39,216 nucleotides of DNA, taken from the IMG/VR virus record IMGVR_UViG_3300036832_001431, positions 1-39,216 of that record; one strand, 5' to 3'. A model generated the notes under the pieces. That model was not told the DNA's origin and did not search any database. It was given only the letters and a program-made list of their open reading frames with translations. This stretch comes from a virus. Below are positions 2,348-28,483 of the stretch, one piece after another. Position 1 is the stretch's first letter. The number at the start of each line of letters is the position of its first letter. Both the position numbers and the translations under genes were made by a program.

Positions 2348-4132
2348 ATGCACGTACGCCGTCCGCCCGTCGCGCCGTGGTGGGGCCGAGGCCGCTCACC
2401 GGCCGAACGCTGGCCGGGTGTCTCGCTCGACTTCGAGGCGACCTGGTCCACGCTGCGGCGTCGGTGGGAAACCCACGAGGGCCGGTACTACTTCGATGCC
2501 GCGAAGGCCGCACGCGCGGAATCGTTCTTCCCGTTGTTTCTCCAGCATCACATCGGCGCGTTTGCCGGCCAGGCCTTCGAGCTTCGCGACGACCAGCGGC
2601 TGCTGATGATCCGGCCGATGTTCGGCTGGCGTCGGGCCGTCGACGGCCTCCGACGCATCCGGAAGCTGTTCGCGTTCTGCCCGAAGGGATACGGCAAGAG
2701 TCCGCTCGGGGCCGGCCTCGGGCTCTACCTCGCGCGCTTCGACGGCGAGCCGGCCTCCGAGGTCTATGCGGTCGCGGCCGACCGGAACCAGGCCCGCACC
2801 GTCCACGACAACGCGAAAGTCATGGTCGAGAATTCGCCCGACCTGATGGACGGCTGCGCGATTGTGAAAAATGCGATTACCTGGCCGGACCTCTACTCGC
2901 GGTACATCGTCCTCTCGAGTGACGCCGCCACGAAGCACGGGTTTCGGCCGCACGGCATCATCTTCGATGAACTGCACGCGCAGAAAAATCGGGACCTCTT
3001 CGAGGCCCTCCGTAAATCGATGGACAAGCGGGACCAACCGCTGCTGATCATCATCACGCACGCCGGCGACGACGACGAAGGCATCTGCTACGAAGAGTAC
3101 GACCTCGCGAAGCGCGTGCTGAGTGGCAACGCGTCGGAGCTCGAGACGACCCTGCCGGTCATCTTCGAGGCGCAGAAGGGCGAGCCGTGGAATAATCCGG
3201 CGCTCTGGCGCCGCGTGAATCCCGGGCACGGGACGACCATCAAACACGACGGCGTGGCCGAGGAAGCGCGCGAGGCCGCGGCCGAACCCCGCAAACGAAA
3301 CGACTTCGAGCGGTATCACCTGAATCGCTGGACGAACCAGGCGACGGCCTGGATTCCGCTCGATTGGTGGGATGCGTGCGCCGGTCCGCTCGAGGACCCG
3401 GTCCTCCTCGAGCTCGAATGCGCGGCCGGTCTCGACCTGGCGCAGAAGTGGGACCTCGCCGCCTTCGTCGTCGTCTTCCGTCGATTCCTCGAAGTCGAGA
3501 CGGCCATCGACATCATGGAGAAAAACGACGACACCGGCGAACACACGAAGCGCCGCGTCACCTTGAACTATGAACTGTTCGTGCGGCCGCACTTCTGGAT
3601 TCCCGAGAACACGATGCAGCTGCACGAACGCGTGGACGGCGTGCCGTACGGCCTTTGGCGGGACCTCGGCCTGGTCACGGCGACCGAGGGCGACGTCATC
3701 GACTATGACCGGATCTTCGAGGACATCACGACCCGGATCGTGCCCCGGTATCCGCGATTGAAGCAGGGCGGCATCGGGTATGACCCGGCGTTCGCCACGG
3801 ACCTCGCGAGTCGGTTGCGCGACCTGGCCGGCCTCTCGGTTGTGGAAGTGTTACAGAACTATAAGATGCTCAGCGAGCCGGCGCAGATTGTCGAGGCCCT
3901 GATCAAAGGCCGACGCGTCCGGCACGACGGCCATCGCGTGCTCCGATGGAATTTCGAGAACGTCGCCGTCAAGACCGATGACGCTGGGCGGATTCGGCCG
4001 GTGAAGCCGAAGAATGCCGCCAAGCGCATCGATGGCGTAGTCGGGACGATCATGGGCACCAAGGCACTCGAGATGCCGAAGGTTCGGGCCCCGGAATATC
4101 AAATCGTCGTAGTCGGGGGAGGCACCAAATGA
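2348..4132 (+). CDS. terL: Terminase large subunit (packaging ATPase-nuclease)
   Basis: 594 aa, normal length for HK97-type large terminases. The ATPase half carries a Walker A-like 'CPKGYGKS' (111-118) and Walker B 'IIFDE' (204-208), followed by a probable coupling segment 'LLIIITHAGDDDEG' (232-245). The RNase H-like nuclease half carries Asp in 'AGLDLAQKWDLAAF' (D363), 'GGIGYDPAF' (D479) and 'KRIDGVVG' (D562). The protein pumps DNA into the procapsid through the portal and cuts it at the genome ends. ATG 2348 lies just after terS; the stop overlaps the next start as ATGA. Confidence 0.95.
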   Translation: MHVRRPPVAPWWGRGRSPAERWPGVSLDFEATWSTLRRRWETHEGRYYFDAAKAARAESFFPLFLQHHIGAFAGQAFELRDDQRLLMIRPMFGWRRAVDGLRRIRKLFAFCPKGYGKSPLGAGLGLYLARFDGEPASEVYAVAADRNQARTVHDNAKVMVENSPDLMDGCAIVKNAITWPDLYSRYIVLSSDAATKHGFRPHGIIFDELHAQKNRDLFEALRKSMDKRDQPLLIIITHAGDDDEGICYEEYDLAKRVLSGNASELETTLPVIFEAQKGEPWNNPALWRRVNPGHGTTIKHDGVAEEAREAAAEPRKRNDFERYHLNRWTNQATAWIPLDWWDACAGPLEDPVLLELECAAGLDLAQKWDLAAFVVVFRRFLEVETAIDIMEKNDDTGEHTKRRVTLNYELFVRPHFWIPENTMQLHERVDGVPYGLWRDLGLVTATEGDVIDYDRIFEDITTRIVPRYPRLKQGGIGYDPAFATDLASRLRDLAGLSVVEVLQNYKMLSEPAQIVEALIKGRRVRHDGHRVLRWNFENVAVKTDDAGRIRPVKPKNAAKRIDGVVGTIMGTKALEMPKVRAPEYQIVVVGGGTK

Positions 4133-4356
4133 GCGACAAACGCACGGGAGGCCGGCCGCCGTTGTATGAGACGGCCGCCTCGCAGCGCATTGTGGTTCGG
4201 GTCACGCCGGCCCAACGGTTGGAACTCCGACGGGTCGCCGACCAGCAGGGGACAGGGATGGCCGGCGTGATTCGAGAATTGATCGATGAACGGGTCGAGG
4301 ACCGGCGCCCGTTTCCCGGGCACCGGCACGACGAAGAGGAGGAAGAGGACGATTAG
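4129..4356 (+). CDS. Ribbon-helix-helix DNA-binding protein
   Basis: 75 aa. A beta strand 'SQRIVVRVTP' and two helices ('AQRLELRRVADQQGTGMAGV', then 'IRELIDERV') give the Arc/CopG ribbon-helix-helix pattern, with a Gly-containing turn between the helices. The C-terminal 15 residues are strongly acidic (six Glu and three Asp). It is translationally coupled to terL (ATGA) and ends in TAG, overlapping tail-to-tail by 4 bp the last gene of the reverse operon. It probably acts as a dimeric repressor; the CCTAGG palindromes are candidate sites, but nothing in the sequence links them directly. Confidence 0.7.
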   Translation: MSDKRTGGRPPLYETAASQRIVVRVTPAQRLELRRVADQQGTGMAGVIRELIDERVEDRRPFPGHRHDEEEEEDD

Positions 4357-4586
4357 GAACGGTCGGTGCGCGAGAGGCCGGACCAGGTCGCGATGGCCGA
4401 GGGGCCCGGGATATGCGCCAGGTGCGGGCCGGCGTGCCCCTCGGGCCGCGTGCAGATGTAGACCCGGCCGTCGTGCGTCCTCGAGCCGCTCTGGCATTGC
4501 GGCCCCTCGGCCGGCGGATACTCGGCCGCGAGGGCCTGCCCCTCTCGGATGGACAATTCGCGGAACAGTTCGCGGATAGATTTCAT
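4353..4586 (-). CDS. Small Cys/His protein
   Basis: 77 aa, last gene of the seven-gene reverse operon, start coupled by ATGA to the gene before it. The middle holds 'CQSGSRTHDG...C' followed by 'CTRPEGHAGPHLAHIPG'. The 'C-x3-GH-x-GPH' pattern is widespread in small phage proteins, where it probably binds zinc. No function is known. The stop (TAA on this strand) overlaps the RHH gene on the other strand, leaving no room for a terminator between the convergent operons. Confidence 0.55.
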   Translation of the reverse strand: MKSIRELFRELSIREGQALAAEYPPAEGPQCQSGSRTHDGRVYICTRPEGHAGPHLAHIPGPSAIATWSGLSRTDRS

Positions 4587-4792
4587 CGGACCTCCTCACC
4601 GGGCACGGCCTCGGTCTGTAACCAAATCGTCAGCAATCGAAGAATCAACGCACGAATCGACGTGCCATCTCGGCGGGCCTTCGCGCGCACGTCGCGCCAG
4701 AACGTTGCCGGGATTTGATCCAGCATGTAGCGTTTGCCGGTGTCGGCGTAACTCGGGAACTGTCGCGAATAACCCCGTTTGCGGGCAGGCAT
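4583..4792 (-). CDS. Small CopG/RHH-like protein
   Basis: 69 aa. A basic N-terminus ('PARKRGYSRQ') is followed by 'GKRYMLDQIPATFWRDVRAK' and 'RRDGTSIRALILRLLTIWLQ', which looks like a strand plus two helices of a ribbon-helix-helix dimer. If so, it may autoregulate this operon through the palindrome at 5990-6001. It is preceded by the 66 aa gene one base upstream and coupled to the next gene by ATGA. A non-DNA-binding helical protein cannot be excluded. Confidence 0.55.
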   Translation of the reverse strand: MPARKRGYSRQFPSYADTGKRYMLDQIPATFWRDVRAKARRDGTSIRALILRLLTIWLQTEAVPGEEVR

Positions 4793-4793
4793 C

Positions 4794-4994
4794 TTAGCTC
4801 TCCTCCTGAACCCAGTACTGAAAAAACGCCGTCGAGCGCATGTGATTCATCTCGCGATTCAGGCGTCGGGCCTCGGCCTCGGCGGCGTCCCGGGTCTCGA
4901 AGTACTGAATCTCGCCAAGGCGTTTCAGTGTTGCCTCGCGCGTGCCGGTGACGCCGCCCGAGACCCGACACCCGACCGTGAACCGGCCGGTCAT
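4794..4994 (-). CDS. Small protein of unknown function
   Basis: 66 aa from ATG 4994 (ATGA overlap with the upstream gene's stop); the longer open frame to 5342 would run through the two upstream genes and is rejected. 'MTGRFTVGCRVSG' then 'LGEIQYFETRDAAEAEARRL' and 'NREMNHMRSTAFFQYWVQEE' suggest a strand-helix-strand fold resembling the small SPOR-like or viral accessory folds that track residue pairs ('F.TRDAAEAEARRLN'). No function is assigned. Confidence 0.5.
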   Translation of the reverse strand: MTGRFTVGCRVSGGVTGTREATLKRLGEIQYFETRDAAEAEARRLNREMNHMRSTAFFQYWVQEES

Positions 4995-5212
4995 CGGGAC
5001 ACCCGGCGGCCGCCGAGGCGGCGCGGCATCGGTTGACCGAGAAACAGCGAGACCGTTTGCTGGAGACCGGCGGCCCGGGCGGCGTCCCAAATGCGCAGAT
5101 TCTCGGTCGTGTATCCGGCATACTCGATCGTGCCGGCGTGATAGGCCTCGGCGTTGGCGCGGAGTTCGGCCGCCCATTGTCGGGCGCGGGCCTCCTCTGG
5201 AATTTCCTTCAT
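4991..5212 (-). CDS. Small helical protein of unknown function
   Basis: 73 aa. It is helical with an acidic start ('MKEIPEEARARQWAAELRAN') and the central 'GTIEYAGYTTENLRIWDAA', ending in a basic 'RRLGGRRVSR'. The start overlaps the upstream stop (ATGA) and its own stop overlaps the next start. No membrane segment, signal peptide or metal motif. I do not recognise it. Confidence 0.5.
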   Translation of the reverse strand: MKEIPEEARARQWAAELRANAEAYHAGTIEYAGYTTENLRIWDAARAAGLQQTVSLFLGQPMPRRLGGRRVSR

Positions 5213-5457
5213 CGGTTCCCCCAGACCCGGCCATCGAAGGACGTAACGCCATTATTGAAGGCGCACACGAGGGCATCGGCGGCGGCGTACCCGAGTTTCG
5301 AGATGACCACGGGCGCGACTTCGGCCCCGTCAATCGGTTCAATGGTCACCGGGTACTCCCGGCGGCCGCGGGTCGCGAAGGGGCGCGAGGCCCGATAGCA
5401 CACCCCTTCCACGAGTGTCAGACGATGACCGGCAATCGATTTGGTCAGCATGATCAC
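5209..5457 (-). CDS. Small protein of unknown function
   Basis: 82 aa from GTG 5457, which overlaps the upstream stop (GTGA); an in-frame ATG two codons later (5451) is the alternative. Mostly beta: 'IAGHRLTLVEGVCYRA', 'REYPVTIEPIDG', then a helix 'SKLGYAAADALVCAFNNG' and 'VTSFDGRVWGNR'. Not recognised. Coupling on both sides argues that it is translated. Confidence 0.5.
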   Translation of the reverse strand: MIMLTKSIAGHRLTLVEGVCYRASRPFATRGRREYPVTIEPIDGAEVAPVVISKLGYAAADALVCAFNNGVTSFDGRVWGNR

Positions 5458-5675
5458 TTGACCTCGACATCATTGGCATCGAGGATGGACTCGAGGCCTT
5501 CACTGATGCAGGCCAGGGTGCCCACCGTCGCGCCGGTGAATTCGCCGGCGGCGAGGAGGTCAACCAGACCGGCCAGGTCGGCCATCTGCTGACGGACGAC
5601 CGCGAGATTTTTTCTGACCGCGGCCTCGGTGCGGGCCGCCTGGATGCCTTCGGCGCCAGGATTGTATGAGGTCAT
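5454..5675 (-). CDS. Small helical protein of unknown function
   Basis: 73 aa from ATG 5675; the longer frame to 5966 would cross the upstream gene and is rejected. 'MTSYNPGAEGIQAARTEAAV', 'RQQMADLAGLVDLLAAGEFT' and 'GTLACISEGLESILDANDVE' make an amphipathic, mostly helical protein. It starts within the upstream stop (TAATG) and its stop overlaps the next start. No function is known. Confidence 0.5.
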   Translation of the reverse strand: MTSYNPGAEGIQAARTEAAVRKNLAVVRQQMADLAGLVDLLAAGEFTGATVGTLACISEGLESILDANDVEVK

Positions 5676-5920
5676 TACTGCACGTCCTTTGCTGTCGAGA
5701 CGAACACGAACACGTACCCGGTTTTCACGGCGCCGCCGGCCAGGGGCCCCGACCAGTGCATCTTCTGGCAGAGGGCCTCGGCCGCCTTCCGGTGCACGGC
5801 CTCGCCACTCAATTCGTGCGGGTAGGAAATCGTGACCCGGTTGCCGTCGGAATCCGAGGCCGAAATCCTCGAGCCGCGGGTATTGGTCGCGCCGAGGAAT
5901 TTGGTTGTGATGGCCTTCAT
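5675..5920 (-). CDS. Conserved small phage protein
   Basis: 81 aa, first gene of the reverse operon. 'MKAITTKFLGATNTRGSRI', 'DGNRVTISYPHELSGEAVHR', 'AAEALCQKMHW' and 'GYVFVFV' follow a pattern I recognise from many uncultured phages and GC-rich prophages, where it is an uncharacterised small protein. It appears to be a mixed beta/alpha single domain. The leader between its promoter (5978-6006) and the ATG is about 50 nt and can form a GGGGC/GCCCC hairpin (5949-5964). No strong ribosome site is visible. Confidence 0.65.
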   Translation of the reverse strand: MKAITTKFLGATNTRGSRISASDSDGNRVTISYPHELSGEAVHRKAAEALCQKMHWSGPLAGGAVKTGYVFVFVSTAKDVQ

Positions 5921-5977
5921 AAAGTGTCTTGAACCCTTCGATTAGCAGGGGGCCTAATTGCCCCAACCGATAGACCT

Positions 5978-6006
5978 ATTCTCCCGCTAAATCCTAGGAT
6001 TGTCAA
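5978..6006 (-). promoter_or_regulatory. Sigma70-type promoter of the reverse operon
   Basis: On the reverse strand, TTGACA (6006-6001) matches the -35 consensus exactly. A 17 bp spacer follows, then GAGAAT (5983-5978), which matches four of six -10 bases. Transcription would start near 5971 and read the seven small genes. A palindrome fills part of the spacer, so a bound repressor would block RNA polymerase. Confidence 0.65.
5990..6001. promoter_or_regulatory. Palindromic operator candidate AATCCTAGGATT
   Basis: A perfect 12 bp palindrome inside the spacer of the reverse promoter and touching its -35 box. AATCCTAGG recurs at 6026-6034, and TTCCTAGGAT occurs upstream of the recombinase operon at 27303-27312. 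CTAG is usually rare in GC-rich genomes, which makes the repeated use notable. The binding protein is unknown; an RHH or HTH protein encoded in this window is the likely candidate. Confidence 0.6.
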
Positions 6007-6099
6007 ACGACCCGAAACGGGCCGGAATCCTAGGGTTTTCGGCCAGGTTTCAGCAGCCAAAACCCGAGGGCCTCCCGCACACTCTCAGGCCTCGACCAT

Positions 6100-7998
6100 A
6101 TGAACCGGGCGTATAGCGTCTTGCACGTCAAGGCCGCCAATCCTGACCTCCGGGTGATTACCGGCGTGGCCTCGACACCGACACCCGACCGACTCGGAGA
6201 CATTGTCGAGCCCCTCGGGATGTCGTTTAAGAATCCGGTCCCGCTCCTCCTGTACCACGACACGAAGAAGCCGGTCGGCACGGTCAAATTTTTTCCGCCG
6301 ACGAAGGACGGTCTCGAGTTCGAGGCCTCGCTGCCGACGATTGACGAACCCGGCACCCTGCACGACCGAGTCGAGGAGGCCTGGCAATCGATCAAGGCCG
6401 GCCTCCTCGCCGCCGTGTCGATTGGATTCCGGGCCATCGAGGAAGCCTGGATGAACGACGCCGCGGCGTATCGATTCATCAAGACGGAAGTCCTCGAGCT
6501 CTCCCTCGTGACGATTCCCGCGAACCAGGATGCGACCATCGAAACGATCAAACGTCTCGACCAGGTCCATCTGCCGCCGGGCGCTACCGGCACCGTTCAC
6601 CGACCCGGCGCTTCGGGTACTCCCGTCGTACGCGTCCAGCGAGGCGCGACCGCTATGACCATTCCAGACCAGATCAAAAGTTACGAAGCCACGCGCGCCG
6701 CCGATGTCGCACGCCAGGCCGCGCTGATGCAGACGGCCGCCGACGCCGGCACGACCCTCGATGCCGCGCAGGGCGAGGAGTACGACACCCTCGGTGCGAA
6801 GGTGAAAGCCGTCGATGCGCATCTCGTGCGCCTGCACGAGCAAGAGCAGCTGAACATCGCGAGGGCCGTCGCCGTCACCGGGCCGGCCGACCCGAATGCC
6901 GCGGCCGCCGAACGGCGCGGCGTCGTCATTCAACTCGCGCCGAATCTCCCGAAGGCGACCGGCTTCACCCGGTACGCGCGCGCGCTGATCATGTCGCGCG
7001 GCAATCTGATGCAGGCCGCCGAGATTGCCAAGCAGTGGCGCGATTCGACGCCCGAGGTTGAACTCGCGCTGAAGGCCGCGGTCGCCGTCGGCACGACGAC
7101 CGATGCCGTGTGGGCCGGTCCCCTGGCGCCGATGAAACCGTTGCTCACGGAATTCCTCGAGCTCCTGCGGAACGCGTCGATTGTGGACCGCGTGCCCGGG
7201 ATGCGTCACGTCCCGTTCAACGTCTCGGTCGCCGGGCAGACCGGCGGCGGCACGTACGGATGGGTCGGGCAGAACGCGCCGAAACCCGTGAGCGCGCTCG
7301 CCTTCAATGCGCAGACCCTCGGCATCGCGAAGTGCTCGGGCATCATCGTCATCTCGGAGGAACTCGCGCGGGTCTCGACGCCGAGCGCCGAAGACATCAT
7401 CCGGCGCGACATGATTGCCGGCATCGCGGCCTTCCTCGCCACGCAGTTCACCGACCCGACGCTCGCGCCGGTCGCAAACGTGTCGCCGGGTTCGATTACC
7501 AACGGCGTCGCCCTCACGGCCAGTGCCGGCGCGACGCCGGCCAATGCGCGGACGGACATCCTGACGCTCGCGGGCAAGTTGGTCGCCGCGAATCTGACGA
7601 CGGCCGGGGCGGTCCTCCTGATGTCGGAGACGAATGCGCTCGCGCTCGCCGGCGCACTGAATCCGCTCGGGCAACCGTTGTACCCGGGCCTGAACGCGCA
7701 AGGCGGCACGGTCCTCGGGTTCCAGGTCATCACGAGTCAAGCGCTCGGCGTGAACGTCATCCTGGTCCAGGGCAACGGCATCCTGATCGCGGACGATGGC
7801 GGCGTCGAAATCGATGTCTCGCGCGAGGCCTCGGTGCAGATGGATTCGGCCCCGGACAATCCGATGCTCGCGACGACCGTCATGCAGTCGCTCTGGCAGA
7901 ACAACCTGGTCGGCCTCCGCGCGGACCGCTTCATCAACTGGAAGCGCGCGCGCCTGGCGTCGGTCCAGTACACACAGCAAACGTACTTGGCCGCGTAA
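6100..7998 (+). CDS. HK97-type prohead protease / major capsid protein fusion
   Basis: 632 aa. Residues 1-155 are an HK97 (U35-like) prohead protease, with catalytic His in 'LLYHDTKKPVGTV' (H53) and Ser in 'AAVSIGF' (S107), followed by 'ELSLVTIPANQDA'. Residues about 186-245 look like the scaffolding delta region of a capsid precursor ('QIKSYEATRAADVARQAALM', then a helix ending near 'HLVRLHEQEQ'). Residues about 260-632 are the HK97-fold capsid ('GQTGGGTYGWVGQNAPKPVS', 'VISEELARVSTPSAEDIIRR', 'QSLWQNNLVGLRADRFINWK'). An in-frame ATG at 6655 could start a separate capsid protein. The protein builds the procapsid shell and then cleaves itself during maturation. Confidence 0.92.
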   Translation: MNRAYSVLHVKAANPDLRVITGVASTPTPDRLGDIVEPLGMSFKNPVPLLLYHDTKKPVGTVKFFPPTKDGLEFEASLPTIDEPGTLHDRVEEAWQSIKAGLLAAVSIGFRAIEEAWMNDAAAYRFIKTEVLELSLVTIPANQDATIETIKRLDQVHLPPGATGTVHRPGASGTPVVRVQRGATAMTIPDQIKSYEATRAADVARQAALMQTAADAGTTLDAAQGEEYDTLGAKVKAVDAHLVRLHEQEQLNIARAVAVTGPADPNAAAAERRGVVIQLAPNLPKATGFTRYARALIMSRGNLMQAAEIAKQWRDSTPEVELALKAAVAVGTTTDAVWAGPLAPMKPLLTEFLELLRNASIVDRVPGMRHVPFNVSVAGQTGGGTYGWVGQNAPKPVSALAFNAQTLGIAKCSGIIVISEELARVSTPSAEDIIRRDMIAGIAAFLATQFTDPTLAPVANVSPGSITNGVALTASAGATPANARTDILTLAGKLVAANLTTAGAVLLMSETNALALAGALNPLGQPLYPGLNAQGGTVLGFQVITSQALGVNVILVQGNGILIADDGGVEIDVSREASVQMDSAPDNPMLATTVMQSLWQNNLVGLRADRFINWKRARLASVQYTQQTYLAA

Positions 7999-10949: not shown

Positions 10950-11327
10950 ATGCCAGGGTCGCCGATTCCCACCGGGCGCCGCGCGTTTCATCTCGTGCGG
11001 GTGCAGAATCCGACGCCGACGCCGGCCGGCGGCGATTATCAGGAGACCTTCGCGGACGCCGTGCCGGTGTATTGGTTCGTTGCCATCGACGAACTCGCGG
11101 GCGGCGGCCAGGAGCAAATCAAATCGCTCGAGGGTGTCGTCCTGACGCAACCGAGTCTCACCATCACCGGCGCCTATCGGGCCGACATCACGACGGCCTC
11201 GCGCATCCTCGATGACCAGGGCCGCGTGCTGCACGTCATCTCGGTCGCGTCACCCGAGGCGCGGCAGCGCGAGCTGGTCTGCACCTGTAGCGTCATCACG
11301 ACCGAGACGGCCGGAGCGACTCGATGA
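10950..11327 (+). CDS. Head-tail adaptor / head closure protein
   Basis: 125 aa, beta-rich: 'YWFVAIDELAGGGQEQ', 'GVVLTQPSLTITGAYRADIT', 'RILDDQGRVLHVISVA', 'ELVCTCSVI'. This matches the SPP1 gp16 / phage head-tail joining pattern, with the conserved 'I.v.yr.dit...ri...gr.f.I..v' layout and position after the connector. It forms the ring that seals the portal channel and presents the docking surface for the tail. Its stop overlaps the next start (ATGA). Confidence 0.75.
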   Translation: MPGSPIPTGRRAFHLVRVQNPTPTPAGGDYQETFADAVPVYWFVAIDELAGGGQEQIKSLEGVVLTQPSLTITGAYRADITTASRILDDQGRVLHVISVASPEARQRELVCTCSVITTETAGATR

Positions 11328-12625
11328 CGGTGCACGCCGCCGATTCCTCGGCCATCGATAACGCGTTGATTGCGAAACTCGGCGCCGATGCCGCGCTCCT
11401 GGCGCTGATGCCGAACGGCGTGTATTACGGGCTCGGGCCTCCGGGCGCGACTCGGTACGTGACGGTCACCATCGACCAGCAGACCGACGTGCCGGCGTTC
11501 GGGGGCCGAGTGCAGGAGGATACGCAGTACCGCATCGTGGCCTCGGGCCTCTCGACCGCGAATCCCGATTGCCAGGGCGCGGCGTTGCGCATCGATGAAC
11601 TGCTCGAGGACCAACCGTTCGCGGTGGACCAGTTCACCTTCGCGACGATGTACCGAGTGCGGCGCATTCGGGAGACCCGGCCGGACCTGACGAATCCGTC
11701 GGTCCGCTGGCATCTCCGGGGCGGCGTGTATCGCGTGGTGTTCGCGGTCGGCGTGCCGGCGCCGTCGGCCCTGGTCTGGACGGAAGCCGCCGATGCCTTG
11801 CCGGCGCCGAATGTCGGCGGCGCGGCCGTCGTGGTCGGTGGGCGCATGGTCGTGATTGGCGGCGCGGATACGCCGTCGGTTGTGACCTCGAGCGGCGGCC
11901 CGTGGAGCTCGCTCGGCGTGACCGGATTACCGGCACTCCGCTACGGCGCGGCCGTCGTGAACGGGGCGACCGTGTTCTATTGCGGCGGTGACGACCCGGA
12001 CGGCATACCCGGCCGCAAGGTGTTTCAGTCGCTCGACCTCTCGACCTGGACGGAAGTCGGGACCGACGCGCTCCCGTTCGCGCTGGACGAACATGCGGCC
12101 GTGCCGTTTCACGGGGCGCTCGCGATTATCGGCGGGTACAACGAAACGACGGGCGCCGCGTCGGCCTCGGTCCTGACGTCTCCGGATGGCGCCGTCTGGA
12201 CGGAGCGCGCGAACGCGTTGCCCCTCGGCCTCTACGGTCACGCGGCCGTCGTGCTCGATGACCAAATCCTGATCATCGGCGGCGCGAATGACGACGGCGG
12301 CCCCGAGGTGTACCAGCAGACGATTTATGCGTCGATGGACGGCGGCACCTGGAGCCGTATCGGCTCGCTCCCGATTGCCCTGGCGTGGCACTCGGCCGCG
12401 GTCCTGGCCGGCGTGATCTACCTCTTCGGCGGGTTCAATGCCACCGACTACAACGGGACGGTCTACGCCTCGAGCGACGGCGGCGTGAGCTGGGGCAGTG
12501 TGGGCCCGTATCCGGTCGCCTCGGACGATGGCGCCGGCGTCGGGTATCAGGGCGCGCTCTGGCAAATCGGCGGAAACATCGACGGCACGCCGAGCGCGAC
12601 CGTCTTCGTCTCGGCGGTCGCATGA
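11324..12625 (+). CDS. Tail-terminator-like domain fused to a six-blade Kelch propeller
   Basis: 433 aa. Residues 8-142 resemble the DUF3168/tail terminator fold ('IDNALIAKLGADAALLALMP', 'VPAFGGRVQEDTQYRIVASG', 'SVRWHLRGGVYRVVFAV') and are clearly related to the gene at 13059. Residues about 150-433 are six Kelch repeats, each with a small-residue strand then 'xxIGG' (for example 'GGAAVVVGGRMVVIGG', 'GHAAVVLDDQILIIGG', 'WHSAAVLAGVIYLFGG'). Tail terminators cap the tail tube at the head junction as hexamers; Kelch propellers usually bind proteins or sugars. The fusion would hang a propeller around the neck. I know of no standard family with this architecture. ATGA overlaps occur at both ends. 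Confidence 0.82.
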   Translation: MTVHAADSSAIDNALIAKLGADAALLALMPNGVYYGLGPPGATRYVTVTIDQQTDVPAFGGRVQEDTQYRIVASGLSTANPDCQGAALRIDELLEDQPFAVDQFTFATMYRVRRIRETRPDLTNPSVRWHLRGGVYRVVFAVGVPAPSALVWTEAADALPAPNVGGAAVVVGGRMVVIGGADTPSVVTSSGGPWSSLGVTGLPALRYGAAVVNGATVFYCGGDDPDGIPGRKVFQSLDLSTWTEVGTDALPFALDEHAAVPFHGALAIIGGYNETTGAASASVLTSPDGAVWTERANALPLGLYGHAAVVLDDQILIIGGANDDGGPEVYQQTIYASMDGGTWSRIGSLPIALAWHSAAVLAGVIYLFGGFNATDYNGTVYASSDGGVSWGSVGPYPVASDDGAGVGYQGALWQIGGNIDGTPSATVFVSAVA

Positions 12626-13062
12626 GCGAGAACAAACTGGTCTTCACCGGGCTCGAGGCCTTCAAGGCCGACCTGCGGAATCTCCCGAGAGACCTCACCG
12701 GCGAGGCCGCGCACATCGTCATCGCGCACGCCAATCGGGCCGCGCTCGCCGTGCGGCAGCAGTACCACATCGGCAAGACCGGCGACCTGGTCGAGCATGT
12801 CGTCGTCAATCCACTCGAGGCCTCCGAGTTTGCCGCGGTCGCGAAGGTCGTGAGTAATTCCAATCTGGCGTTCATCTACGAGGAAGGCACCGTCCGTCGG
12901 GATGCCGTCAAACGACACGGCAAGCCGATGAAGAAAAAAGCGAATCGCGGGAGCTCACCGAAGCATCCGATTTTCATTGCCGAGATGATGCGCGAACGCG
13001 CGGCGATGGAGGACGACCTCGCCGACATGATGCGCCAGCACGGCCTCACGGTGCATCGATGA
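12622..13062 (+). CDS. HK97 gp10-like neck/tail completion protein
   Basis: 146 aa from ATG 12622 (ATGA overlap). 'LVFTGLEAFKADLRNLPRDL', 'RAALAVRQQYHIGKTGDLVE', 'FIYEEGTVRR', and the late 'KHPIFIAEMMRERAAMEDDL' are typical of HK97 gp10-like proteins, with a Pro/Phe motif near the C-terminus and basic loops between. They act at the head-tail interface. It sits between the two related tail-terminator genes. Confidence 0.8.
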   Translation: MSENKLVFTGLEAFKADLRNLPRDLTGEAAHIVIAHANRAALAVRQQYHIGKTGDLVEHVVVNPLEASEFAAVAKVVSNSNLAFIYEEGTVRRDAVKRHGKPMKKKANRGSSPKHPIFIAEMMRERAAMEDDLADMMRQHGLTVHR

Positions 13063-13535
13063 TCGGTGTCCTGACTCGGCCGGCCGCACCGACGACCCTC
13101 ATCGATAGCGGGACCATCGAGGCCGCGCTCGTGGCGTTGCTGAACGCCGACCCGGTCCTCGTGACGCTGCTGCCGGATGGCGTGTACGAAGATTGGGCCG
13201 CCGACAACGGGGACGCCTTCGCGGTCGTGCGGCTGCTGACCGAGCGCGACCTGGCCGCCTTCGGCCGACGCGTCGGCGAGGATTACCGCTTCCTCGTGTT
13301 GGTCTCGACACTCGAGGCCGACATTGCTGACGCCGCGGCCAGGCGTATCGAGGCCCTCCTCGATGACGGGACGCTCGAGGTCCCCGGGTGCACGGTGCAG
13401 GCGATGTACACCGAGGCCCGGGTCAGCGACGACGAACCGGACGGCGTCACGCCAGGCCTGACCTGGCAGCATCGCGGCGGGCAGTATCGCGTGCAGGTTG
13501 CGCTGCACGCCGGGGACCGAACTCAAACGGGGTAA
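13059..13535 (+). CDS. Tail terminator / tail completion protein (DUF3168-like)
   Basis: 158 aa. 'IEAALVALLNADPVLVTLLP', 'DLAAFGRRVGEDYRFLVLVS', 'AARRIEALLDDGTLEVPG' and 'LTWQHRGGQYRVQVAL' match the tail-terminator fold, with the canonical 'WxHRGGxYRV' end. It lies directly before the major tail protein, the normal place. It is a paralogue of the N-terminal domain of the Kelch-fused protein at 11324. It probably forms the hexameric ring ending tail-tube growth. The ATGA overlap couples it to the gp10-like gene. Confidence 0.8.
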   Translation: MIGVLTRPAAPTTLIDSGTIEAALVALLNADPVLVTLLPDGVYEDWAADNGDAFAVVRLLTERDLAAFGRRVGEDYRFLVLVSTLEADIADAAARRIEALLDDGTLEVPGCTVQAMYTEARVSDDEPDGVTPGLTWQHRGGQYRVQVALHAGDRTQTG

Positions 13536-25242: not shown

Positions 25243-26976
25243 TCAGGCCGCGAGGCCGGCGAACGGCACATCCCACAGTTCGCCGCATCCCGTGGAGGAT
25301 GCACCGACCTGCGGTATGGTTCCGCCGAAAATTGGCAGCAATTTCAATTTGCCGGCAAAGTGGAAGGCCCGGGTATCGCGCCGGGGAATCTTCGACCAGC
25401 GCCGATCACGGGGGCGCAGTGCCTCGACCGGGGCCGCCGGCGTAAACACAATCTTCCCCTCGAGCAGGCGCCGGAATAGGTCCCGGGTCGCCGCGACCGG
25501 GCCCTCGAGTTCGGCCGTGAAGGTCTCGAGCCGCTGCCGGATCAACCGCTGCAGGGTCGCACGATTCGGCAACGGGGCCAGGGGCGCCGCCCCGTCGGCC
25601 GCGGCCAGGTCGGCCCGGAGCTGGGCAACCGTGGCCTCGCTGTCCCGATAGGCCTGATGAATCTTCGGCAGGTTCCCGAGGTCAAGGATGGCCTGCGCGG
25701 CCCGGTCTCGCACCCGTTCGGCCCGCTCGAGGTCTGCCCGCAGACCCTTCGCGCCGGGGCCCTGGCGTCGGGTGTCGTACAGGGCGACCAACTTTTTCAG
25801 AATCCGGTCGGCATCGGGTGTCGCCTCGGCCAGGATGGCGCGCAGGATGGCCTGGTCCACAATCGGCACTTCGACGCGCGTGCCGTTGGTGCAGGCCGCC
25901 GGCCCTTTCCGATTGTAGGTGTCGCAGATGTACGTCATGCCCTGGTCTTTGCGAATGCCGGCCCGGGCCGCCATCGTGCCTCCGCAGACGCCGCACTGCC
26001 CGAAGTGGGTCAGGCGATAATTCGAGTTGCCATCGAGCAGCCGGCCGCCCTTCGGGCCTCCCATGCGGTCGGTGCGTCCCTGTCGATGGGCCGCGGCCGC
26101 TTTCCAGACTTCGACCGAGACGATGGCCGGCGTGTTGGACGGCGCGACAATCCACTCGCGCTCGGGGCGTCGGGTGAATTTGTAATCGCCGTCGGCATCT
26201 TTTTTCGTGGTGCGGCCGTAGACGACCGGGCCGCCGTAGTAGATCGGCCGTCGCAGCATGCTGACAACCGCGCCACGGGTCCAGGGGCCCTGCCGCACGG
26301 TGCGGAGGCCCTCGGCGTTCAATTCGTTCACGATGCGCGTGCCGCCGGCCCCGGCGGCCGCTCGAGCAAAGATGCGACGAACAATCGCGGCCTGGTCTTC
26401 GTTGATTTCCCGCACGACGAACGACGATTCCCCGACCATCTTCCGAACGTTGTCGTACCCGAAAATCGACCGGCCGACGACGTGCCCGGATTTGATTTTC
26501 TTCACGAGGGCCGTCCGGGTCCAGGTCGCAATCTGCCGGACGTACTCCCGATTCTTCGCGCCGTCGATGAACCCGACGACATCATCGCTGAACGTCCCGT
26601 GCTTGAACTGCCGGCCGTCCTGGTAGTACCAGATTTCCACGCCGGCCTGCGCCAGGCGCTTCAACTCTCCGAAGGAATGGTCCCCATCGCGCCGACTGAA
26701 TCGGGACGAATCCCGCATCGCGAGAATCCGGCGCGGCGTTCGGTCGGCCAGAATCCTCTCGATCAACCGCTGCCGATTCTTCAACCGGCTGGTCATCGTG
26801 CCGCTCACGGCATCGTCGGCAAACATTTGATCGGCCGCGGGTGCCGGCCAGTGTTTCTCTCGGATGAACCCGACGGCGTTCTCGGTCTGGAGGGCGACCG
26901 ATTTTTCATCTTCGGTCACGTTCCGCTGCAGGGTCGATTTGCGGGCGTAGGTGTAGGTCGTCGTGCCGGCCCTCAT
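25243..26976 (-). CDS. Large serine recombinase (integrase)
   Basis: 577 aa from ATG 26976, which overlaps the upstream stop (ATGA); a start at 27003 is possible but less coupled. The resolvase domain has catalytic Ser in 'YARKSTLQRN' (S14), 'DDAVSGTM' and 'RDSSRFSRRDGDHS' (88-101). A recombinase domain follows ('RIVNELNAEGLRT', 'MLRRPIYYGGPVVYGRT'), then a zinc ribbon (Cys 328, 331, 351, 362) and a coiled coil. The C-terminus closes with 'FAGLAA'. It cuts and joins attP and attB, integrating the phage. The gene is convergent with the tail operon. Confidence 0.93.
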   Translation of the reverse strand: MRAGTTTYTYARKSTLQRNVTEDEKSVALQTENAVGFIREKHWPAPAADQMFADDAVSGTMTSRLKNRQRLIERILADRTPRRILAMRDSSRFSRRDGDHSFGELKRLAQAGVEIWYYQDGRQFKHGTFSDDVVGFIDGAKNREYVRQIATWTRTALVKKIKSGHVVGRSIFGYDNVRKMVGESSFVVREINEDQAAIVRRIFARAAAGAGGTRIVNELNAEGLRTVRQGPWTRGAVVSMLRRPIYYGGPVVYGRTTKKDADGDYKFTRRPEREWIVAPSNTPAIVSVEVWKAAAAHRQGRTDRMGGPKGGRLLDGNSNYRLTHFGQCGVCGGTMAARAGIRKDQGMTYICDTYNRKGPAACTNGTRVEVPIVDQAILRAILAEATPDADRILKKLVALYDTRRQGPGAKGLRADLERAERVRDRAAQAILDLGNLPKIHQAYRDSEATVAQLRADLAAADGAAPLAPLPNRATLQRLIRQRLETFTAELEGPVAATRDLFRRLLEGKIVFTPAAPVEALRPRDRRWSKIPRRDTRAFHFAGKLKLLPIFGGTIPQVGASSTGCGELWDVPFAGLAA

Positions 26977-27242
26977 TTGCTGCCGTCCTTCACCCTCGCC
27001 CATCGGGCCCGAGCGGCTCGAGACATCTTCGCGCGGACGGCCTTCGAGATGGGGGCCCGCGGCGGCCGCGGCCGGGCGACCCGTTCGACGGCGAGAGGTT
27101 GCTGCAGTTCGCGCGCGAGCCGTTCGGGTGTCAGGGGCCCGAGATGCAACTCGGCCAGGATATCGGGGAAGGTCGCCACGGCCCGCCGGACCTCGGCGGC
27201 CGCGCCGGCGCGTGCATAGCGCCGAAATTCAGAGTCAGTCAT
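26973..27242 (-). CDS. Small basic protein upstream of the recombinase
   Basis: 89 aa. N-terminal helices ('DSEFRRYARAGAAAEVRRAV', 'ILAELHLGPLTPERLARELQ') lead to a basic C-terminus ('ISKAVRAKMSRAARARWARV') of the 'KMS.AARARWA' type found in small phage regulators. It is coupled by ATGA to the recombinase. A DNA-binding partner such as a directionality factor is possible, but nothing proves it. Confidence 0.55.
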   Translation of the reverse strand: MTDSEFRRYARAGAAAEVRRAVATFPDILAELHLGPLTPERLARELQQPLAVERVARPRPPRAPISKAVRAKMSRAARARWARVKDGSK

Positions 27243-27362
27243 ACCAGGATGGTCCTTTACACAGAGGCCGCCGTAAGCAGGCCCGGGCGGCGTAGGGGCC
27301 GATTCCTAGGATACCGCGGACGGTGTATTACTCGGGGTATTACTCCCGACTTACCGGAGCGG
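27243..27362. promoter_or_regulatory. Recombinase upstream region: CCTAGG palindrome, direct repeats, possible att site
   Basis: 120 bp without a gene. It contains ATTCCTAGGAT (27302-27312), like the operator at 5990-6001, and two GTATTACTC repeats (27325-27333 and 27337-27345). A GCCGCC...GGCGGC hairpin can form near 27268-27293. On the reverse strand TATCCT overlaps the palindrome as a possible -10, but no good -35 is at 17 bp. Serine integrase attP sites often flank the gene; no integration boundary is visible here. Confidence 0.45.
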
Positions 27363-27650
27363 TCAGATTGTGAGACGGAACACGCGCCGCCGAGAAGGTC
27401 TGCGCGAGGCGGCTGCCGGCATCTTAAGCATCCGGCCCGGTGTGCGCGCCGAGGCGAGAGCATACTGGAGGAGCGCGTCCCCCGAGAGGTCAAGGGGCAG
27501 ACCGTCCGCGATGGCCGCGAGGATGTCGCGCACGGCCGACGCGACAATCGGCTCCGCGAGTTCGATGCGACTGAAGGCCTCGGTAACATCGAGCGACATC
27601 TTCGACGGTGACGGACGCCTGACGATAGAGAAACGAGCGACGGCACTCAT
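27363..27650 (-). CDS. Protein of unknown function between repressor and recombinase
   Basis: 95 aa from ATG 27650; on this strand GGGAGGA lies about 11 bases upstream, and a longer frame to 27689 is less likely. 'MSLDVTEAFSRIELAEPIVA', 'SAVRDILAAIADGLPLDLSG' form helices; the C-terminus is basic ('ASRRPSRRRVFRLTI'). Nothing recognisable. It could be a small regulator. About 140 bp of non-coding sequence separates it from the repressor stop (27651-27790), in which I see no clear promoter or terminator. Confidence 0.5.
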   Translation of the reverse strand: MSAVARFSIVRRPSPSKMSLDVTEAFSRIELAEPIVASAVRDILAAIADGLPLDLSGDALLQYALASARTPGRMLKMPAAASRRPSRRRVFRLTI

Positions 27651-27790
27651 AGGATTGTCGGTCCTCCCTTCCTCCGAGCGGCGCGGCATTCATCTCGCTG
27701 TCACCTTAGCAGAGTAAACAGACGGATGGATCTGTAAATTTGGGCAGGCGGAAATACCCAACCGGGGGGCCTGTCAGTTTTGCGAGGCCG

Positions 27791-28336
27791 TCATCGTGTG
27801 CGGCGACGACGCACGGGCAGCTCGACCGGGGCCGCGGGTGCGGGTGTCGAGGGAAGGACCTTCCCAACCGTCGCCGCCGTGGTCGCCCGCATCACGACCA
27901 GGAGGGCCATCTCGAGCAAGGTGTCGTCGTGCATCGTCGCGAGGCCGTGCATGATTTGTCCAATCGTGCGGCGCGTCGATTCACGCAGCGGTGTCGAGAG
28001 GAGGGTGCGCACGGCCAGCTTCACATCGAGGACGGCGTGATGAAACTGCTGTGCGAATTCCAGGTCTTCGGCGTTGAGGTACGCGGTCCGTTCCTCGAGT
28101 GTGGCCTGGCGCAATTCCTCGAGCGTCTTGCCGAGCGCGCGCGCGACTTTCTCGATGTTCTCGGGCCGCACGTCTCGACCGTCCCCGAGTTCAATCAATC
28201 GAACGGTCCCGAGAGCCACGCCGGCCCGTTTGGCCACGGCGCGCTGTTTCAGGTGCTGCTCGAGTCGGAGGAGGCGAAGTCGGTGCCCGACTCGCTGCCG
28301 TTCTGCATCGGATAATTTTTTCGGTTGCGTGACCAA
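27791..28336 (-). CDS. CI/Cro-type HTH repressor
   Basis: 181 aa. Residues about 17-75 are an XRE HTH ('GHRLRLLRLEQHLKQRAVAK', 'RAGVALGTVRLIELGDG', 'ENIEKVARALGKTLEEL'). The rest is helical ('DLEFAQQFHHAVLDVKLAVR', 'IGQIMHGLATMHDD') with a Pro/Arg tail. No LexA-type peptidase Ser/Lys is seen, so induction would not be by self-cleavage. The start is TTG 28336, with an in-frame TAG upstream and no ATG nearby, which implies low output. It diverges from the early operon across the operators at 28391-28460, as a lysogeny repressor would. Confidence 0.78.
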   Translation of the reverse strand: MVTQPKKLSDAERQRVGHRLRLLRLEQHLKQRAVAKRAGVALGTVRLIELGDGRDVRPENIEKVARALGKTLEELRQATLEERTAYLNAEDLEFAQQFHHAVLDVKLAVRTLLSTPLRESTRRTIGQIMHGLATMHDDTLLEMALLVVMRATTAATVGKVLPSTPAPAAPVELPVRRRRTR

Positions 28337-28376
28337 GGCCCCTCTAGAGAAACGGGTTACGGCCTAAACCCGATTG

Positions 28377-28382
28377 AGTCAA
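28377..28382 (-). promoter_or_regulatory. Possible -35 box of the repressor promoter
   Basis: TTGACT on the reverse strand, 41 bases before the repressor start. A 17 bp spacer leads to TAACCC (28359-28354), a poor -10. If real, it is a weak promoter, consistent with the TTG start. It lies just beyond the operator at 28391. Confidence 0.3.
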
Positions 28383-28390
28383 ATACATAT

Positions 28391-28410
28391 GTTTTGCGTC
28401 TATGCAAAAC
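28391..28410. promoter_or_regulatory. Operator O1: GTTTTGC-N6-GCAAAAC inverted repeat
   Basis: Perfect seven-base arms around a six-base spacer (GTCTAT), in the 147 bp gap between divergent HTH genes. HTH dimers of the CI/Cro type bind such sites. The site lies between the two start sites and could control both directions. Confidence 0.7.
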
Positions 28411-28438
28411 GGGTCCGCGGGAAATTTACACCGACCCC

Positions 28439-28466
28439 TTGCACTTTGCAAATAGATGCGTATGAT
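28439..28466 (+). promoter_or_regulatory. Early promoter with overlapping operator O2
   Basis: TTGCAC (28439-28444), 16 bp, then TATGAT (28461-28466), which matches five of six -10 bases. The spacer holds TTTGCAAA (28445-28452) and ATAGATGCG. The latter resembles the reverse strand of O1 (ATAGACGC), so the same regulator probably binds both. The start codon at 28484 would lie close to the transcription start, giving a very short leader. Confidence 0.55.
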
Positions 28467-28483
28467 CCGCGAGTTGGTCCTGA

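Follow-up and report, generated by a model that had tools for sequence, protein, structure and literature searches.

The closest described systems to the locus reported here are the pid gene of Salmonella phage P22 and the acr-aca operons. The pid locus is one small orphan gene (86 aa) that is inserted in the late region antisense to its neighbors and is under its own control (PMC3573128). In acr-aca operons, an inverted repeat lies in the core promoter, sometimes with a second copy, and the repressor gene follows the small genes (PMC9410906); the described Aca families are HTH proteins, not RHH proteins (PMC9765179). The cassette of seven small genes examined here (g1 to g7) was found to resemble both. 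Like pid, it is a reverse-strand insert in the late region with its own control, at a site where relatives have either nothing or another insert; unlike pid, a single gene that has an intrinsic terminator on its 3′ side, it comprises seven coupled genes, no intrinsic terminator was found on the minus strand near its end at 4353, and it includes a palindrome pair and an RHH-like gene. Like the acr-aca operons, it has short same-strand genes, a consensus-like promoter, an inverted repeat in the core promoter with a second copy, and a candidate DNA-binding gene (g6) after small genes; it differs in that (i) g6 is RHH-like rather than HTH, (ii) g7 follows g6, and (iii) no anti-CRISPR gene was identified. 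Since the known Aca proteins are of the HTH type and no Acr homologue was identified, the cassette is not filed here as an acr-aca operon, only as a locus that would work like one. Overall, it is of a known kind, a moron, in which the number of coupled genes is unusual and an RHH autorepressor is plausible.

The window analyzed was a whole IMG/VR virus record of 39,216 bases. The source virus is probably a temperate phage, as judged from the serine recombinase gene (25243-27003) and the HTH regulators present in the window; the recombinase is of the large type and is distantly similar to the cassette chromosome recombinase CcrB (E 3e-11). At 11324-12625 and 13059-13535 lie genes for two small tail-type proteins that resemble each other; the first carries a long extension at its C terminus that looks like kelch repeats. 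Neither Rfam families nor tRNAs were found in the window. The host was sought with the capsid query in 396 genomes from the phylum of the Bryobacteraceae MAG matched by g6, with no hit at E 1e-60, and the g5 profile likewise had no match in genomes of that phylum. Within the late region, the terminase gene (2348-4132) is followed by a small forward RHH-like gene (4129-4356), and the gene of a protease-capsid fusion protein lies at 6100-7998.

Seven minus-strand open reading frames of 66-82 aa each fill 4353-5920 between the forward RHH and capsid genes: g1 (81 aa, 5675..5920), g2 (73 aa, 5454..5675), g3 (5209..5457), g4 (73 aa, 4991..5212), g5 (66 aa, 4794..4994), g6 (69 aa, 4583..4792), and g7 (77 aa, 4353..4586). 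The g3 product is 82 aa from GTG 5457 or 80 aa from ATG 5451, and the latter may be the start. Successive genes are coupled by TAATG (g1/g2, 5677-5673), GTGA (g2/g3, 5457-5454), or ATGA (g3/g4, 5212-5209; g4/g5, 4994-4991; g6/g7, 4586-4583), the one other junction being a single-base gap at 4793 between g5 and g6; g4 and g5 are without a Shine-Dalgarno sequence of their own. When open reading frames of at least 60 aa were considered, the longest coupled chain had 7 members, compared with 3 in 300 Markov shuffles of the region and 2 at most on the antisense strands of the long late genes. A gene caller based on codon usage and trained on the long genes of the window picked exactly the seven cassette frames and no forward frame in this stretch. 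The codon scores of g1, g2, g3, and g4 exceeded those of all similar-sized spurious frames in the window (maximum 17.3), that of g5 (16.9) was slightly below this maximum, and those of g6 (7.6) and g7 (9.5), the weakest two, were positive and inside the spurious range (90th percentile 11.7). The status of g6 and g7 as genes rests on position and coupling and, for g6, also on fold. Thus, the seven tiny coupled reverse-strand genes of the preliminary description were borne out by the sequence, the gene caller, and the shuffles. The last stop codon of the cassette and that of the forward RHH gene share 4 bp, so the cassette is convergent with the terminase unit.

Comparison with relatives was based on 80 loci found via the capsid protein, in 25 of which the RHH gene could be detected. 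In 24 of these 25 loci, some of them near-duplicates, the RHH and capsid genes are separated by 31-115 bp with nothing between; in the remaining one (L077) the RHH gene lies 480 bp ahead of the capsid gene. None of the relatives examined was found to have cassette-type reverse genes between terminase and capsid, and the nearest (L053; terminase 80%, capsid 70%) is without the cassette. By local alignment, DNA identity with the three nearest relatives (L051, L052, and L053) ends at 4319 and is regained at 6104-6106. This closed junction in the relatives, together with the break in identity, indicates that the cassette is an insertion in the present phage and, by the same criterion as P22 pid, a moron. 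Judged from these comparisons, which establish the insertion itself, it is an acquired moron of about 1.75 kb in the RHH-capsid junction (4320..6090, ends approximate). Of the features that go with morons, extra DNA was found to separate genes that lie next to each other in relatives, and an own promoter is present at sequence level as one predicted sigma70-like site; an own terminator, which is common in morons and not always reported, was not seen, and membership is kept on the insertion criterion. The GC content of the insert (about 0.62-0.67) is the same as that of its neighbors, a compositional break being a frequent moron trait and not a defining one. No direct repeats of at least 8 bases were found flanking the insert ends, and a search of 25 longer records of relatives for g1 and g5 returned neither.

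Other genes were seen at or near this junction in related phages. Two forward genes (261 and 155 aa), with no significant Pfam family, fill the RHH-capsid junction at L093:626-1875 and L126:1457-2706, and reverse-strand HicA and HicB genes lie ahead of the terminase gene in the late region of another relative (L065:2379-2786). Foreign-gene insertion here therefore has precedent. The HicAB pair resembles the cassette in being a set of small reverse-strand genes inserted among the late genes of a related phage; it differs as a recognized toxin-antitoxin system positioned ahead of the terminase, with no genes in common with the cassette.

The control region of the cassette was examined with a promoter scan of 4100-6200, which found one site in 2.1 kb where 0.2 were expected. 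This predicted sigma70-like promoter, TTGACA-17-GAGAAT, occupies 5978..6006 on the minus strand, with TTGACA at 6006-6001. A perfect palindrome, AATCCTAGGATT (5990..6001), lies inside the core promoter as candidate operator 1; it starts at the last base of the -35 element and occupies most of the spacer. A near-copy, AATCCTAGGGTT (6026..6037), is positioned 24 nt upstream of AATCCTAGGATT, upstream of the promoter, as candidate operator 2. Palindrome sites with up to 2 mismatches number 4 in the window compared with 0.38 expected, a count reached in 0 of 100 shuffles. The TTGACA promoter overlapping a palindrome, as previously proposed, is thus present in both its parts, the promoter as a single predicted site, and this site over the palindrome, together with the absence of the cassette from the relatives' junction, upholds the description of the cassette as an independent unit that has a control region of its own. 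The other two of the four palindrome-like sites lie in the lysogeny module, ATTCCTAGGATA at 27302-27313 and ACTCATAGGATT at 27645-27656, the latter overlapping the start of a small minus-strand open reading frame. An exact 19-base match to the promoter-palindrome stretch (window 5988-6006) was noted at L143:7557-7575; this contig is of 32% GC, belongs to an unrelated phage with no shared proteins, and the match was set aside as probably due to chance for a collection of this size.

A promoter-like -10 element of the capsid gene, CACACT (6078..6083, plus strand), is conserved in relatives and is kept downstream of the insert. Of 63 distinct relatives, 38 have the pattern [CT]ANVCT at 5-19 bases ahead of the capsid start, compared with 7.2 expected, which suggests a near-leaderless capsid promoter in relatives; the pattern was seen upstream of the capsid gene in L051-L130. 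With promoters of their own, the cassette and the capsid gene would form a divergent pair, and an insert that is divergent from the capsid gene and convergent with the terminase unit could then be tolerated in the reversed orientation.

The g6 product was found to have the look of an RHH (Arc/CopG/VapB) protein. It matched the Arc-like phrog_6506 weakly (E 0.0035), and over a stretch of 35 aa it was 51% identical to a VapB-like protein. That protein passes the Pfam RHH_1 profile; g6 itself had no RHH match in Pfam. Its model has helices at residues 29-42 and 46-60 at a pLDDT of about 87 and an N-terminal ribbon that is not confident, and its fold matches had mostly RHH proteins on top (Arc, CopG, PutA, MatP, MazE, and VapB), with low scores (Z up to 4.5). 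Profile comparison of g6 with the family of the forward RHH gene revealed no significant similarity, and no HTH profile matched any of g1-g7. These results suggest that g6 is an RHH-like DNA-binding protein that may act as an autorepressor. More broadly, Pfam, NCBIfam, and PADLOC gave no usable match for g1-g7 (PADLOC nothing at all), and sequence searches of the PDB with g1 and g6 returned no relatives. The view that none of the seven has a known function holds, with g6 as the exception in its RHH DNA-binding appearance.

Of the seven, g1 could be placed most firmly in a family. It matched the phrog_3199 profile with an E of 5.8e-17 over residues 1-65 and had 49 viral relatives, with 29 named phage records; none were detected in plasmids. 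T7-like and Cobavirinae phages carry this family in blocks of small early genes: the relatives of g1 lie (i) in a small-gene block upstream of the RNA polymerase gene in PPpW-4, phiPsa17, and IME-DE1; (ii) upstream of primase and polymerase genes in CRP-5; and (iii) among consecutive small hypothetical genes in RHph_I20, JenP1, Strzyga, and PS. The block before the RNA polymerase gene is the place of early host-directed genes in T7-like phages. While g1 shares the phrog_3199 profile family with the PPpW-4 and phiPsa17 proteins, those are encoded in a forward early block, whereas g1 lies among the late genes of a temperate phage and has other partners. The g1 model (pLDDT 79) has five strands and one helix in a predicted beta3-alpha-beta2 fold, for which all good matches were uncharacterized phage proteins (Foldseek probability 1.0). 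A fold search of the PDB with g1 gave scattered weak matches, among them several double-stranded-RNA-binding domains (Z about 3-3.5) and T7 gp1.2 (Z 2.5); these were rejected, as they were not above background.

The g5 product belongs to an unnamed phage family with seven relatives and the invariant motif CRVSGGVTGTRE; several of these relatives are encoded in small-gene arrays in the non-structural part of other phages. The positions of the g1 family, and of g5 by context, thus favor host takeover or counter-defence over a role in virion structure. By contrast, g3, g4, and g7 were orphans in the collections searched, as was g2 in one collection (named phages); for g7 a weak match was seen around a GHxGPH motif in Gordonia phages, and a pattern scan of viral contigs, a method that reaches close relatives only, found nothing for g3, g4, g6, and g7. 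A tie of g2, g3, g4, and g7 to host takeover is by company alone. The host-takeover role that the preliminary description proposed gained support for g1, whose relatives in T7-like and other phages are positioned in blocks of small early genes, and for that gene only. A lack of conserved frames in relatives had been named as evidence against the cassette; the relatives of this phage lack the whole insert, yet the g1 and g5 frames encode proteins conserved elsewhere, and the absence is not damaging. The comparison with relatives and the g1 family make an independent, host-directed cassette more likely.

Our preferred reading, to which we give about an even chance, is that the locus is a moron expressed on entry and/or in the lysogen, limited by g6, and yielding host-takeover or counter-defence factors. 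Upon entry of the phage, host RNA polymerase would transcribe the cassette leftward from its own promoter, and a low level of leakage in the lysogen would be expected outside the late program. One message would give seven proteins through coupled (stop-start) translation. Encoded near the end, g6 would bind both AATCCTAGG palindromes and turn the promoter off, such that a pulse of product results, while the remaining proteins would target the host, with g1 (and g5 by context) from families that other phages encode in small-gene arrays of early or non-structural type. Rightward read-through from the terminase would oppose the cassette late in infection, by collision or antisense, and the capsid gene, on its own promoter, would tolerate the reverse insert. 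Of this scheme, the timing, g6 as the binder, and the host-directed action are what we infer.

A possible though less favored explanation is a moron for lysogenic conversion or superinfection exclusion, expressed steadily from the prophage under a lysogeny regulator with further sites of action at 27302 and 27645, with g6 as just one effector and with the lysogen protected or altered by the cassette. High expression in lysogens is common for moron loci, which are characteristically placed antisense to lytic genes (PMC7067206). The present phage has a serine recombinase and an HTH repressor (27791-28336), and the palindrome-like sites recur in the lysogeny module with exact matches of 9-10 bases; the binder of the palindromes may accordingly be a phage regulator rather than g6. 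However, these additional sites have 2 mismatches each, one of them lies over a start codon, and no copy of the palindrome was found between the two HTH genes (28337-28483). Moreover, the g1 relatives occur in T7-like phages, which are mostly lytic and in which their role is not to benefit a lysogen.

In our judgment unlikely is an anti-defence operon autorepressed by an RHH protein instead of an HTH Aca, in which g1 would be joined by several counter-defence families not seen before. We also consider it improbable that the cassette is a toxin-antitoxin addiction module with g6 as an RHH (VapB-like) antitoxin, g7 or g5 as the toxin, and the rest hitch-hiking: the single match of g6 in genomes is to a VapB-like antitoxin with a PIN-like toxin after it, and one relative has a reversed HicAB in its late region, but g1-g7 have no PIN, MazF, RelE, or other toxin domain and the relatives of g5 are without an adjacent antitoxin partner. 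Just as improbable is neutral or decaying cargo, early genes lately captured from another phage with no present use. The lack of relatives of g2, g3, g4, and g7 in the collections searched would fit such cargo, as would a cassette seen once and with no terminator found; nonetheless, the seven frames are intact, tightly coupled, and phage-like in codon usage, and the promoter-like site and palindromes are intact as well. Spurious frames on the antisense strand are scarcely credible, for although long antisense frames are expected in GC-rich DNA and the codon scores of g6 and g7 fall inside the spurious range, there is no forward gene for the cassette to be antisense to, shuffles gave chains of 3 at most against 7, and the relatives of g1 and g5 already contradict it.

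If the preferred reading is true, g1 and g5, of unnamed but widespread families, would be tied to an operon that is compact, regulates itself, and encodes products open to testing one at a time. An RHH gene combined with a core-promoter palindrome would then provide a rule for finding counter-defence operons that are missed by HTH-based Aca searches. Should the RHH-autorepressed anti-defence reading be true, the phrog_3199 and CRVSGGVTGTRE families would be widespread counter-defence or host-takeover proteins.
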